This document shows, one piece after another, positions 11,208-26,488 of a DNA stretch of 46,758 nt (the first letter of the stretch is position 1; every line of letters begins with the position of its first letter). Where the stretch lies: contig JAJYCJ010000015.1 of the NCBI GenBank assembly GCA_021778515.1, forward strand, positions 1 to 46,758, written 5' to 3'. The position numbers and the translations under genes were made by a program. Below the pieces are notes generated by a model. It was not told where the DNA came from and made no database searches. It saw only the letters and a program-made list of their open reading frames with translations. Origin of the DNA: Acidobacteriota bacterium. Its GTDB lineage: Bacteria > Acidobacteriota > UBA4820 > DSQY01.

Positions 11208-11241
11208 CCCCAAGGCCACGCACCGTTTGAGAACCCTTTAG

Positions 11242-11567
11242 CCCAAATTCCGCGATTGAAATGCGGGTGGCTTCGGCTATGGTTCAGGTTCACGGGGGGG
11301 AGACATTGTCTCTTGGACGGGGAGGGCCATGGGCTTCCTCCTCCGATTCGCAGGCAAAGCCTGACGAATCGTCGCGTTGCCCTCCGGGGCCCCGCCCCAC
11401 GGGCAAAGCCCGCTGGGGCCCCACCCCACCCTTGGGGCTTCCTCCCCCGGATCAAGTCCGGGGTCGGAGGCAACCCAAATTCCTTGGCGGGTGAAGACCG
11501 TCTTCCACGGAAACTACCATCCATGAGCCTTCCGGAGCCACTCCAATGTCCAATCGCGGGATTTGGG
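11242..11567. mobile_element. MITE-like non-autonomous element, copy 1 (326 bp)
   Basis: Terminal inverted repeats CCCAAATTCCGCGATTG / CAATCGCGGGATTTGGG (1 mismatch); flanked by direct repeats TTTAG at 11237-11241 and 11568-11572; about 95% identical by eye to 26136-26461, same length. Confidence 0.85.
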
Positions 11568-11568
11568 T

Positions 11569-12162
11569 TTAGCGAAGGCCGCTTCGATTCCATCGGCAGT
11601 TGGGGAACTCGTGCCGCAGGAAGCGAAAGAGATCCCGCCGGTCGAGCGGCGCGGTGAAGCAGTGCTGGACCCCCGAGCTCTCGGCCTCTTCGAGCACCTC
11701 CACGGAGGCGCTTTTGGTCACTCCGGCGAGTCTGACGTGGGAGGTGTCGGGTCCCTCCCGGAGTCGGCGGCAGATGGAGAGACCGTCCCAGGTAGGCGCA
11801 TCCAGGTCCACCAGCAGGAGGTGCGGGTCGAACGAGGTGATCAGAAGACCGCCCTCGAAGGCCGAGGCGGTGAGGGTGACCTGGAGGTCTTCGGACCAGA
11901 GTTCGATCTCCCGGAGCTCCCTCAGAAGCCTCTCCTCGGCGAGGACGAGGACCCGCGTCCGGCCCGATTGGAAATTCTCCGGCAGAGGCATGTGATGGGC
12001 GAGCAGGAAGGTGTCCAGATCCTGTCGGCGGATTCGCCGGTGCCCTCCCGGCGTGGTGTAGGCCGGAAGCCGGCCGGTATTGATCCAGTGGCGGATGGTG
12101 TAGGGGCTGACCTGGCAGTAGCGCCCCGCCTGCCACGTGCTCAATACGCTCCTGCGAGACAT
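11569..12162 (-). CDS. HTH (MerR/excisionase-type) DNA-binding plus receiver-like domain protein
   Basis: MSRRSVLSTWQAGRYCQVSPYTIRHWINTGRLPAYTTPGGHRRIRRQDLDTFL helix-turn-helix followed by a REC-like fold (LLLVDLDAPTWDGLSICRRLREG); start at the internal Met. Confidence 0.8.
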   Translation of the reverse strand: MSRRSVLSTWQAGRYCQVSPYTIRHWINTGRLPAYTTPGGHRRIRRQDLDTFLLAHHMPLPENFQSGRTRVLVLAEERLLRELREIELWSEDLQVTLTASAFEGGLLITSFDPHLLLVDLDAPTWDGLSICRRLREGPDTSHVRLAGVTKSASVEVLEEAESSGVQHCFTAPLDRRDLFRFLRHEFPNCRWNRSGLR

Positions 12163-12182
12163 GGCGGGTTCCCGGGCCTCCT

Positions 12183-12518
12183 TCACCCCACCTCGCGGTG
12201 CACGCCGGGCTCATTCGTCAGGATTCGGCCCTGCAACACGCCGCCGTCCTCCACCCGGAGGTGGCCGGCGCGGACGTCTCCGAGGATCTTGCCCGTGGGG
12301 CCGACAAGGGCATGGCCCGACACCCAGACGTTCCCCTCCAACACGCCGTGGACCGTCACGTCGCGTGCGGTCACTTCACCCTGGACGTGCCCCGCCTGGG
12401 CAATCGTCACCGTGAGTTTGGACCGAACGTTGCCCTCCACGGTGCCTTCGACCACCAGGTCGTCGTCGGTGACAATTCGGCCGGTGAAGCGGGTCGAGGC
12501 GTCGATGAGCGTCTCCAT
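12183..12518 (-). CDS. bactofilin (polymer-forming cytoskeletal protein)
   Basis: METLIDASTRFTGRIVTDDDLVVEGTVEGNVRSKLTVTIAQAGHVQGEVTARDVTVHGVLEGNV, typical DUF583 beta-helix; GGGGGAGG ribosome-binding site. Confidence 0.9.
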   Translation of the reverse strand: METLIDASTRFTGRIVTDDDLVVEGTVEGNVRSKLTVTIAQAGHVQGEVTARDVTVHGVLEGNVWVSGHALVGPTGKILGDVRAGHLRVEDGGVLQGRILTNEPGVHREVG

Positions 12519-21102: not shown

Positions 21103-21188
21103 TAGGGCCACCGTGCCGGCAGACCTCGAGGCCGGCAGTCCCCCGCTAATCCATCGCAGTTCTCGTTCCATTGGCGCAGAGGTTTACC

Positions 21189-21209
21189 GGGTATTGCGGC
21201 GCAATACCC
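21189..21209. promoter_or_regulatory. perfect palindrome upstream of the sedolisin gene (operator-like or 5'UTR hairpin)
   Basis: GGGTATTGCG-G-CGCAATACCC, 10-bp arms, 23 nt before the ATG at 21233. Confidence 0.5.
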
Positions 21210-21232
21210 AAGAGAGACCGGAGGTCGGTGTG

Positions 21233-24200
21233 ATGCAAAGGCGAAGATTATTCCCGTTCGCACTCGGGTTAGTGCTGGCTCTCGCGCTAGTCCCTGGGCT
21301 CTTTGCTCAAGGGGCCAGCCCCGCTTCCTGCGGCACCATAGGACCCATCAACAACAACGACACGATCGTCCTCAGGGGCAACGTGAACCCCCTCGCCCAA
21401 TCCCAGGCGGACTACGGCTTCGCCGACCCGGCGCGGCCGATGGACCGGATCATCCTCACGCTGAAGATGAGCCCCAGCCGGCAGGCCACCCTGGACCGCC
21501 TGCTCGCCGAGCAACAGGACCCCACCTCGCCGCGCTTCCATCATTGGCTGAGCCCCGAGGAATTCGGCAGGCGCTTCGGGCCGAGCAGGCAAGATTTGGC
21601 CACCGTCACAAACTGGCTGAAATCGCAGGGTTTCACCATCGCCGAAGTGGGCAAGGGACGCCTGTGGATCAACTTCAGCGGGAGCGTCGCCGAGGTGGAG
21701 AGCGCCTTCCACACCGAGATTCACCGGTACTACGTGGCGGGGGTGATGCACCACGCCAACGCCACCGATCCCTCGATCCCGAAGGCGCTTTCCAGCGTGG
21801 TGGCAGGCATAGTCTCGCTGGACGACTTCCCGCGCCAGGCCATGAACATGGGCTTCCAGAAGCTGTCTCCCCAGGACGCCGCCGCCGTTTACGCCAAGTA
21901 CGGCAAGATCCTGCCCCAGTGGAGCGGCACCGCCAACGGCACGGCCGGGGTCTACGCCAGCCCCATCGACTGGGCCACGATCTATGACGCGAACGCCTCC
22001 TACAGCGCGAACGGAACCGGCACGGGCGTGACCATCGGCATCGTCGGCCGGACGAATCCCGGCACCACCAACTGGTCGACCTTCCGCAGCGTCCTGGGAC
22101 TTCCCGTGAACACCCCCACGATCATCGTCAATGGCACCAACCCCGGCGACCTGGGCGCCGGCGAGGACGGGGAGGCCGACCTGGACGCCGAATGGTCCGG
22201 CGGCGTGGCCCCGGGGGCTACGGTCAAGTTCGTGGCCTCCGCTTCGACCTCGAGCACAGACGGCGTCGATCTCTCGGCCCAGTACATCGTGAACAACAAC
22301 CTCGCGGACGTGATGAGCACGAGCTTCGGGTCCTGCGAGTCGGCCATGGGGTCGGCCGAGAATACCTTCTACAATAACCTCTGGTCCCAGGCGGCCTCGC
22401 AGGGCATCACCGCCTGCATCTCCACGGGCGACAGCGGTCCCGCCGGCTGCGCCGCGGGCAGCGCCACCACCGGCTCCGGCCAGTCGGGCGTGAACGGCCT
22501 CGCCTCCACTCCCTACGACATCGCCGTGGGCGCCACCCAGCTGAGCAACTCCAGCAGCTACTGGAACGCCTCGGGTGCGGCCACCGGCTACATCCCCGAG
22601 ACGCCCTGGAACGAGAGCGGCACCGTGAGCGGCGGCTCGGGCCTCTGGTCCACGAGCAGCGGGGCCTCCACCACCTACGCCAAGCCCTCCTGGCAGTCGG
22701 CGCCCGGCGTGCCCAGCGCGAACAGCCGGTATTTGCCCGACGTGTGCCTGGACGGTTCCGACATGTTCTTCGGGAACTACGGCATGCTGGTCTACACCCA
22801 GGGCGCCATGGCCACCACGGGCGGCACCTCGGCGGCCTCGCCCTCCTTCGCCGGCCTCATGGCCCTCGTGATCCAGAAGTACGGCCGGCAGGGCAACGCG
22901 AACACGAAGCTCTACCAGCTCGGCACGGCCCAGTACAACGGGACGGGACCGGCTGTCTTCCACGACATCACCTCGGGCAACAACAACGTTCCGGGCCTGA
23001 CGGGCTTCACCGCCGCCACCGGATGGGACGAGGTCACGGGCCTGGGCACGGTGGACGTGGATGCCCTGGTAAACAACTGGAACGGGACCACCACGACCTA
23101 CGGCATCTCGGGGACGGTGAGCCGCGCGGCGACCTCCGGGGTGACCATGACCCTCAGCGGAGCGGCCAGCGCCACGACGACCACGGCCAGCGGCGGGACG
23201 TACAGCTTCGCGGGGCTCGCCAACGGCACCTACACGGTAACGCCGAGCAAGTCCGGCTACACCTTCTCCCCGGCGAGCGCCTCCGAGACGGTGAGCGGCG
23301 CCAACATCACGGGCGTAAACTTCACGGCCACCGCCGTGCCAACCTACAGCATCTCCGGAACGATCACCCTGAACGGGTCCGGCCTCGCAGGGGTGACCGT
23401 CACCTCCGGCACCGCCTCGGCCACGACGAGCAGCGCGGGTGCCTTCACGTTGGCGGGGTTCCCCAGCGGCACCTATACGGTGACGCCGAGCCTGGCGGGC
23501 TACACCTTCTCTCCCACCAGCCAGTCGGTCACCGTCGGCAGCGCCAACGTGACGGGCGTGAACTTCACCGCCTCCGTGGTAACGGGCCCCACGACCCTCT
23601 TCAGCGACGGGTTCGAGAGCCAGTTCACGGGGTGGTCCACGGCCCAGGTCTCCGGAACGGCGGGTGCCTGGACGGCCGTCACCTCTGGCCCCTATCCTTC
23701 GGCCTCTCCCCACGGCGGCTCCTACCTGGCCGACTTCAACTCCTATACTTCCGCCAGCGGAAGCGAGACGCGCTTGTACCGGACGGCGGGCTTCGCCATC
23801 CCCTCTTCCGCCAGCACGGTCACGCTGACCTTCTGGATGTACCACGACACGGGGTACTCCACCTCCAACGACCAGGTGCAGGCGCAGGTCTCCACCAACG
23901 GCAGCACGTGGACCAACGTCGGTTCGGCGGTCTCCCGCTACAGCGGCGGCACGGGCTGGGCGCAGGTCAGCATCGACCTGAGCAGCTACAAGGGGCAGTC
24001 CGTTCAGCTCGGCTTCCTCGGCATCAGCGCTTACGGGAACGACTGCTACATCGACGACGTGGCCGTCGTGATGCAGGGCGGCTCGGCCACCTACAGCATC
24101 TCCGGGACGATCTCTGGAGCCGTGACCAGCGGAGTGACCGTGACCCTGAGCGGCGCGGCGAGCGCGACCACCACCACGGGCACGGGCGGCGCGTACACCT

Positions 24201-26077
24201 TCACTGGACTCGCCAACGGCACCTACACGGTGACGCCGAGTCTCTCCGGGTATACCTTCTCTCCGGCCAGCGCCTCTGAGACGGTGAGCGGCTCCAACAT
24301 CTCGGGCGTGAACTTCACGGCTACGGCCAACCCTCCCGCCACTTACAGCATCTCCGGGACCATCACGCTGAGCGGCTCCGGCCTCTCGGGGGTGACGGTG
24401 GCCGCGGGTTCCGCCTCAGCGACAACCAGCTCGACGGGGGCTTACACGATCAGCGGCCTGGCCAACGGGACCTACACGGTGACGCCGAGCAAGTCCGGTT
24501 ATACCTTCTCGCCCTCGAGCGCGTCAGAGACGGTGAACGGCGCCAGCATCACGGGCGTCAACTTCACGGCCACGGCCAATCCGCCCTCCACTTACACTAT
24601 CTCGGGAACGATCACCTTGAGCGGATCGGGCCTCTCCGGGGTCACCGTCACGGCGGGAACAGCTTCGGCCACCACCAGTTCCACGGGCGCCTACACCCTC
24701 GCCGGCCTGGCGAATGGGACCTACACCGTTACCCCGAGCAAGTCCGGGTACACCTTCTCGCCCACCAGCGCCTCGGAAACGATCAACGGCGCCAACCTGA
24801 CGGGCGTCAATTTCACGGCCACGGCGAGCTCCGGCGGAACGGTCACGCTGCTGAGCGACGGCTTCGAGAACGGCGGCTGGTCCTCGGCCCAGGTCTCCGG
24901 AACGGCGGGCGCCTGGACGGCGCCGACCTCCGGCACTTACCCCAGCGTTTCCCCGCACGGCGGAACCCACCTCGGAGATTTCAACTCCTACACCTCCGCC
25001 AGCGGGAGCGAAACCCGCTACTATCGCGGCGCGGGATTCGCCGTTCCGTCCAACACGACCTCGATGACGCTGACCTTCTGGATGTACCACGACACGGGCT
25101 ACTCCTCGGACAACGACCGCGTGCAGGCGCAGGTCTCCACCAACGGTAGCACGTGGACGAACGTCGGCTCGGCGGTCTCCCGCTATAACGGCGCTACCGG
25201 CTGGGCGCAGGTCACGGTCACCTTGGGCACCACCTATAACGGGGCGGCGAACTTCCAGGTCGGCTTCCTCGGCATCAGCGCCTACGGCAACGACTGCTAC
25301 GTGGACGATGTCGCCGTGGTGGCGCAGACCGGCACGCCTCCGCCCACCTACAGCATCTCGGGCACCATCACCCTGAGCGGCGCGGGCCTCTCGGGAGTGA
25401 CGGTCGCGGCGGGCTCCGCCACGGCCACCACCAACAGCTCAGGCGCCTACACCCTCAGCGGCCTGGCCAACGGAACCTACGCCGTGACGCCCGGTTTGGC
25501 GGGCTACGCCTTCACGCCGGCGAGCGCCTCCGAGACGGTGAACGGCGCCAACATCACGGGCGTCAATTTCACCGCCGCGGTGGCGAGCGGTCCCGCAACC
25601 CTCTTCAGCGACGGCTTCGAAGGAACGGGCTGGTCCACGGCCCAGGTTTCCGGTACCGCGGGCGCCTGGACCATGGTGACCTCTGGCACCTACCCCAGCG
25701 CCTCTCCACACGGCGGCTCCAAGATGGCCGACTTCAACTCCTGGACCTCCGCCAGCGGCAGCGAGACGCGCCTCTACCGGGCCTCCGGCTTTGCCGTGGC
25801 GAGCAACTACACCACGGTGACCCTTACCTTCTGGATGTATCACGACACCCAGTACTCCTCCTACCCCGATCAGGTGCAGGTGCAGGTTTCGACCAACGGC
25901 ACCACCTGGACCAACGTGGGCTCGCCCATCTCGCGCTACACCGGCTCCACCGGCTGGGCCCAGTCCACGGTGGACCTGAGCGCCTACAAGGGCCAGACCG
26001 TCTACCTGGCCTTCGAGGGCATCAGCGGTTACGGCAACGATGAGTATCTCGACGACGTAAGCGTCACCGCACAATAA
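21233..26077 (+). CDS. pro-kumamolisin/sedolisin (S53) serine-carboxyl protease with C-terminal repeat modules
   Basis: Signal peptide; pro-kumamolisin activation domain (DPTSPRFHHWLSPEEFGRRFGPSRQDL); E-x3-D in GEADLDAEW; TGGTSAASPSFAGLMALV catalytic Ser; six carboxypeptidase-regulatory-like (TYSISGTITLSGSGLSGVTV...) and three jelly-roll-like modules. Confidence 0.93.
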   Translation: MQRRRLFPFALGLVLALALVPGLFAQGASPASCGTIGPINNNDTIVLRGNVNPLAQSQADYGFADPARPMDRIILTLKMSPSRQATLDRLLAEQQDPTSPRFHHWLSPEEFGRRFGPSRQDLATVTNWLKSQGFTIAEVGKGRLWINFSGSVAEVESAFHTEIHRYYVAGVMHHANATDPSIPKALSSVVAGIVSLDDFPRQAMNMGFQKLSPQDAAAVYAKYGKILPQWSGTANGTAGVYASPIDWATIYDANASYSANGTGTGVTIGIVGRTNPGTTNWSTFRSVLGLPVNTPTIIVNGTNPGDLGAGEDGEADLDAEWSGGVAPGATVKFVASASTSSTDGVDLSAQYIVNNNLADVMSTSFGSCESAMGSAENTFYNNLWSQAASQGITACISTGDSGPAGCAAGSATTGSGQSGVNGLASTPYDIAVGATQLSNSSSYWNASGAATGYIPETPWNESGTVSGGSGLWSTSSGASTTYAKPSWQSAPGVPSANSRYLPDVCLDGSDMFFGNYGMLVYTQGAMATTGGTSAASPSFAGLMALVIQKYGRQGNANTKLYQLGTAQYNGTGPAVFHDITSGNNNVPGLTGFTAATGWDEVTGLGTVDVDALVNNWNGTTTTYGISGTVSRAATSGVTMTLSGAASATTTTASGGTYSFAGLANGTYTVTPSKSGYTFSPASASETVSGANITGVNFTATAVPTYSISGTITLNGSGLAGVTVTSGTASATTSSAGAFTLAGFPSGTYTVTPSLAGYTFSPTSQSVTVGSANVTGVNFTASVVTGPTTLFSDGFESQFTGWSTAQVSGTAGAWTAVTSGPYPSASPHGGSYLADFNSYTSASGSETRLYRTAGFAIPSSASTVTLTFWMYHDTGYSTSNDQVQAQVSTNGSTWTNVGSAVSRYSGGTGWAQVSIDLSSYKGQSVQLGFLGISAYGNDCYIDDVAVVMQGGSATYSISGTISGAVTSGVTVTLSGAASATTTTGTGGAYTFTGLANGTYTVTPSLSGYTFSPASASETVSGSNISGVNFTATANPPATYSISGTITLSGSGLSGVTVAAGSASATTSSTGAYTISGLANGTYTVTPSKSGYTFSPSSASETVNGASITGVNFTATANPPSTYTISGTITLSGSGLSGVTVTAGTASATTSSTGAYTLAGLANGTYTVTPSKSGYTFSPTSASETINGANLTGVNFTATASSGGTVTLLSDGFENGGWSSAQVSGTAGAWTAPTSGTYPSVSPHGGTHLGDFNSYTSASGSETRYYRGAGFAVPSNTTSMTLTFWMYHDTGYSSDNDRVQAQVSTNGSTWTNVGSAVSRYNGATGWAQVTVTLGTTYNGAANFQVGFLGISAYGNDCYVDDVAVVAQTGTPPPTYSISGTITLSGAGLSGVTVAAGSATATTNSSGAYTLSGLANGTYAVTPGLAGYAFTPASASETVNGANITGVNFTAAVASGPATLFSDGFEGTGWSTAQVSGTAGAWTMVTSGTYPSASPHGGSKMADFNSWTSASGSETRLYRASGFAVASNYTTVTLTFWMYHDTQYSSYPDQVQVQVSTNGTTWTNVGSPISRYTGSTGWAQSTVDLSAYKGQTVYLAFEGISGYGNDEYLDDVSVTAQ
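23096..26074 (+). repeat. intragenic repeat array in the sedolisin gene: modules A-A-B-A-A-A-B-A-B
   Basis: Module A about 83 aa (YSISGTI...GLANGTYTVTPSKSGYTFSPASASETVNGANITGVNFTATA), six copies; module B about 160 aa (LFSDGFE...GWSTAQVSGTAGAWT...SASGSETR...FWMYHDT...GYGNDxYxDDV), three copies. Confidence 0.9.
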
Positions 26078-26098: not shown

Positions 26099-26135
26099 AA
26101 AGGGGGGTGCCTTCGGGTGCCCCCCTTTCTTTATT
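26099..26135 (+). terminator. Rho-independent terminator of the sedolisin gene
   Basis: AAAGGGGGGTGCC-TTCG-GGTGCCCCCCTTT hairpin (with G-T wobbles) followed by CTTTATT. Confidence 0.85.
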
Positions 26136-26461
26136 CCCAAATTCCGCGATTGAAATGCGGGTGGCTTCGGCTATGGTTCAGGTTCACGAGGGGAAGACAT
26201 TGTCTCTTGGACGGGGAGGGCCAAGGGCTTCTCTCTCCGATTCGCAGGCAAAGCCTGACGAATCGTCGCGTTGCCCTCCGGGGCCCCGCCCCACGGGCAA
26301 AGCCCGCTGGGGCCCCACCCCACCCTTGGGGCTTCCTCCCCCGGATCAAGTCCGGGGTCGGAGGCAACCCAAATCCCTTGGCGGGTGAAGACCGTCTTTC
26401 ACGGAAACTACCCTCCATCTGCCTTTCGGTGCCACTCCCATGTCCAGTCGCGGGATTTGGG
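26136..26461. mobile_element. MITE-like non-autonomous element, copy 2 (326 bp)
   Basis: CCCAAATTCCGCGATTG left end, CAGTCGCGGGATTTGGG right end; flanking direct repeats TTATT at 26131-26135 and 26462-26466; same length and about 95% identical to copy 1. Confidence 0.85.
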
Positions 26462-26488
26462 TTATTGGGCGGGGGAATGCCCGACCCC

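Follow-up and report, generated by a model that had tools for sequence, protein, structure and literature searches.

The window analysed here, a stretch of 46,758 nucleotides from an Acidobacteriota bacterium (contig JAJYCJ010000015.1), contains the same 326-bp repeat at two places, which raises the question of what this repeat is, how it reached both sites and which transposase could have moved it. The window is chromosomal, as it holds genes for elongation factor, SecY and bactofilin and one tRNA-Ser. In the original prediction the repeat was read as a MITE mobilised in trans, and its description is reproduced in full: both copies are placed exactly to the base and are 95% identical, the 17-bp inverted ends are CCCAAATTCCGCGATTG and CAATCGCGGGATTTGGG / CAGTCGCGGGATTTGGG, the weaker second inverted block inside them is real, and TTTAG (copy 1) or TTATT (copy 2) is found on both sides (Table 1). 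The interior is free of genes; only chance-like ORFs overlap the element, too short for a transposase. Copy 1 sits between two convergent genes, and copy 2 lies within the T-rich stretch trailing a strong terminator-like hairpin (window 26100-26135), upstream of the tRNA-Ser. A 1654-aa ORF elsewhere in the window (21113-26077) combines a pro-kumamolisin activation domain with repeated carboxypeptidase-regulatory-like domains.

Table 1. Coordinates of the two 326-bp copies, their flanks and folded core, and of elements with a second interior. Positions refer to the window unless a locus is named.
Feature	Position	Strand	Remark
MITE copy 1	11242..11567	+	326 bp
Target-site duplication TTTAG, left of copy 1	11237..11241	.	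single TTCAG at L159 empty site
Left terminal inverted repeat of copy 1, CCCAAATTCCGCGATTG	11242..11258	+	
Hairpin H2, CGATTCG-CAGGC-AAA-GCCTG-A-CGAATCG	11344..11371	+	compensatory changes in relatives
Hairpin H3, CCCCA-CGGGC-AAA-GCCCG-C-TGGGG	11395..11418	+	plan as in H2
Hairpin H4, GCTTCC...GGAGGC, inner CCCCGGA/TCCGGGG stem	11437..11471	+	
Internal box CCCAAATTCC, complementary to right end	11474..11483	+	co-varies with right end across genera
Right terminal inverted repeat of copy 1, CCCAAATCCCGCGATTG read on - strand	11551..11567	-	identical to right end of IS1380-family partner
Target-site duplication TTTAG, right of copy 1	11568..11572	.	contains TAA stop codon of regulator gene
Convergent regulator gene adjoining copy 1	11569-12186	-	
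MITE copy 2, 95% identical to copy 1	26136..26461	+	326 bp
Target-site duplication TTATT, left of copy 2	26131..26135	.	right after terminator-like hairpin
Left terminal inverted repeat of copy 2	26136..26152	+	
Right terminal inverted repeat of copy 2, CCCAAATCCCGCGACTG, one base off	26445..26461	-	
Target-site duplication TTATT, right of copy 2	26462..26466	.	L187 ortholog without element
Second MITE family	L172, L173, L174, L175 (G001); L159 5458-5606		

Searching the organism's own genome (3.34 Mb in 176 contigs) with the 326-bp query returned 40 long matches of 88-100% identity. Allowing for at most two mismatches, the 17-bp end motif occurs 108 times forward and 107 times reverse, compared to 0 and 3 occurrences of the reversed control pattern; chance is thereby excluded, and the counts translate into about 107 related elements. 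The terminal inverted repeats are located at fixed ends across copies, and the further copies sought show the same end bases and flanking duplications. Length classes of 326, 295, 284, 272 and 161 bp were distinguished, with 326 bp the commonest, and whole hairpin modules account for the differences between several of them. Of the elements collected from this genome and its relatives, 54 have an exact target duplication of 5 bp, 12 one of 4 bp and 8 one of 6 bp, while 31 have none. None of the 47 scored sites falls into the interior of a predicted gene, compared to 80% of random nearby positions (approximate figures, obtained with a simple codon-usage gene finder). Many contig ends lie inside MITE copies. 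The unpaired ends at C89 and C115 are solo ends, and the one at C36 proved to belong to the IS described below. A minisatellite of ~120-bp units (CTTTCACTTTTCACTTTTCAC..., GTGTCTTGGTG...) adjoins a solo MITE end (L140 300-790, G000:C115).

Empty sites in relatives, which had been suggested as a check on mobility, were found at the orthologous loci of both copies. In the sister species Acidobacteria bacterium DBS2-1.bin89 (L159) the copy 1 locus carries no element and a single TTCAG: CCCTTCAGCGAAGG stands in place of CCCTTTAG-element-TTTAGCGAAGG in the window, and the flanks are 95% identical. The copy 2 site is empty in a sister species as well (G001:C63, ortholog L187), with the single target copy blurred by small indels. 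The reverse case was also observed, as the window lacks an element of 149 bp with these ends that is present in L159. Furthermore, elements have inserted into one another: GAAAG is duplicated within an older copy at C130, and GCAA at C3, again with an older copy as target. Element-in-element nests are located at L142 2035-2660, L070 616-871 and L080 972-1567. The 326-base repeat is a genuine, recently mobile miniature transposon.

The autonomous partner, left unnamed in the original prediction, was sought as a full IS with shared ends and a transposase. A PF13701 search of nine genomes of the bacterial family yielded a candidate in G007:C503, where a 1604-bp IS (L182 1348-2951) is intact. It has the ends CCCGCCTTCCGCGATTG / CCCAAATCCCGCGATTG, with CTATT duplicated on both sides, and encodes a transposase of 503 aa that scores 308 bits against NF033539 (cut-off 180) and matches PF13701. 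The right end of this IS equals the right MITE end over 17 bases, the left ends differ at 3 of 17 positions, and position 8 is T on the left and C on the right in both elements. The partner is likely this IS1380-family insertion sequence. Pieces of it, 97-98% identical, were located in the organism's own genome at contig edges, namely a right end in C36 and left ends in C51 and C3. Every one is cut by the contig edge and hence partial; their flanks are mutually unmatched, and they probably represent three copies. The piece at G000:C36:1-544 (L190) is without bases 994-1186 of the relative's copy, attributable to an internal deletion or an assembly join. The MITE was also considered as a deletion derivative of the partner IS and rejected, as the alignment of the two stops after the 17-19 terminal bases and the interior is not IS-derived. 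Seven of the nine MITE-carrying genomes of the family contain no detectable copy of the partner IS; in these, either the partner has been lost or another element served.

These data suggest a scheme in which the separate 1604-bp IS with the same 17-bp ends would make an IS1380-family transposase, which would recognise the MITE ends and move the MITE to new intergenic sites, leaving 5-bp (4-6-bp) duplications. We infer both the action of the transposase in trans, from shared ends and matching duplications, and its chemistry. Two other histories of the copies have to be weighed against this scheme. Their full-length identity of 95% would also follow from segmental duplication or gene conversion, yet the flanks and duplications differ between the copies, about 107 dispersed elements share the exact ends and a sister species has empty sites, of which that of copy 1 already refutes this origin; its probability is negligible. 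The original preference for transposition is thus upheld by the empty sites, the nested insertions with their duplications and the differing 4-6-bp duplications. Alternatively, a transposase of a different family (IS1634, Tn3 or IS5) might have moved the same MITE, and the IS1380 element might share its ends through convergence or capture. The 5-bp duplications fit several families, and the relatives contain IS1634-like transposases. However, the IS1634-like copies end differently (CCCAGGTGGATCTTC...), and the PF01609 elements of the own genome are without these ends. Only the IS1380 element combines the ends and the duplication in the right places, which renders this alternative very improbable. 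Other candidates for the partner were discarded along the way. PF01609 transposases are present in the own genome and in relatives, with other ends, and the IS1380-like element L181 in G006 has other ends too. Apparent elements of 5.3 kb and 1.5 kb, suggested by paired end positions in G001 and G006, resolved into pairs of distinct short elements, or remnant or chance ends around ordinary genes. We conclude that the two copies are very probably a non-autonomous MITE moved by the IS1380-family transposase of a separate IS, with a separate, long-kept folded core as interior.

The core was characterised in an alignment of 35 diverse members. H2 and H3 are built alike: each has an outer stem and a tip stem of 5 bp that closes on AAA, and a single base bulges out on the 3' side. 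Across four genera, 94.5% of the cells in H2, H3, H4 and the pair of internal box and right end are paired, and sliding the pairing partners by one column collapses all pairing measures. Double changes were counted in 84 cells versus 29.2 (sd 4.7) in shuffles, although shuffle counts do not equal probabilities for related sequences. The internal box tracks the right end (CCCAAAT/ATTTGGG, CCCCAAT/ATTGGGG) better than the left end does. Comparison of the strands outside the ends and the internal box gave 31 G-U versus 16 A-C cells, mostly from one inherited pair. The folding z-score is -7.1, and Rfam gave no match above the gathering score. The covariance model of the core finds its matches mostly between the ends, or else in copies that have decayed or lie at contig edges, and thus gives no indication that the MITE picked up a free-standing RNA gene.

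The compensatory changes seen over four genera, both in three hairpins and in the pairing of the internal box with the right end, could be taken, together with the folding score, to mean that selection maintains the element primarily as a structured RNA or terminator-like module, with mobility merely its means of spread. We consider this unlikely: the insertion places are lineage-specific, decayed copies are many, and palindromes can also acquire compensatory changes through DNA foldback or template-switch repair. A related idea can be entertained alongside the preferred reading of a transposase-moved MITE, namely that the interior might be a conserved structured RNA carried by an IS1380-type MITE through the radiation of the bacterial family, e.g. 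with a role in the control of its own transposition or at mRNA 3' ends. This idea draws on the paralogous hairpins with a GGC-AAA-GCC tip and 3' bulge, and on the internal box, which competes with the left end for pairing with the right end; it is speculative and doubtful at present. An RNA function is not claimed, because foldback repair can produce compensatory change as well and the shuffle counts cannot be read as probabilities.

The MITE is confined to its bacterial family in the genomes searched: the covariance model of the core finds it in 9 of 9 family genomes and in none of 190 further genomes, and a DNA query gave the same split between family and non-family (100 genomes). Plasmid and phage records gave no matches to the element, and viral contigs contained six single end motifs, none of them paired and probably due to chance. 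The ends themselves serve a second interior. Those copies of the ends that were read in G001 mostly bound a different 150-bp interior consisting of one long hairpin. This second MITE family measures 149-151 bp, has GTAGGAGCGGCGCC-type arms and 5-bp duplications and shares the ends; L172 contains four copies within 7 kb. The ends are thus common to two or more unrelated interiors.

With regard to known systems, the partner resembles IS1380-family elements such as IS1247 (1672 bp, IR 16/13, DR 5; PMC3281130) in its length of 1604 bp, 17-bp ends, 5-bp duplication and single NF033539/PF13701 transposase, whereas the 326-bp element has no transposase and only the ends in common with them. Like bacterial MITEs, e.g. 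Coxiella QMITEs, Correia/NEMIS and ERIC (review PMC10969869), it is shorter than 500 bp and intergenic, has short inverted ends, target duplications and a very stable predicted fold, and presumably moves in trans. It differs from them in being GC-rich, in its IS1380-type ends, and in an interior that is conserved with compensatory changes across several genera instead of being left over from the parent IS. Tn3 elements also leave 5-bp duplications; their ends start with GGGG, in contrast to the CCCAAAT at which the ends of the 326-bp element start. Tn3-derived TIMEs (PMC4133298) are likewise non-autonomous and moved in trans, as we propose here, but the partner in the present case is IS1380 and not Tn3. 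The 326-bp element represents a new family of MITEs, of a known kind. A search of one literature library returned no paper on IS1380-linked MITEs or on such elements in Acidobacteria; priority is not claimed.

In summary, a MITE with a named, probable autonomous partner can be assigned to a little-studied family of Acidobacteria. The number of copies and relatives suffices to test end recognition by the transposase. As the 150-bp MITE has another interior and the same ends, the interior is not needed for the use of the ends; since it is also not IS-derived and shows compensatory changes over several genera, selection of MITE interiors for structure becomes directly testable. The MITE copies explain part of the fragmentation of the assembly, and the layering of nested elements could be used to place the subfamilies in a temporal sequence.
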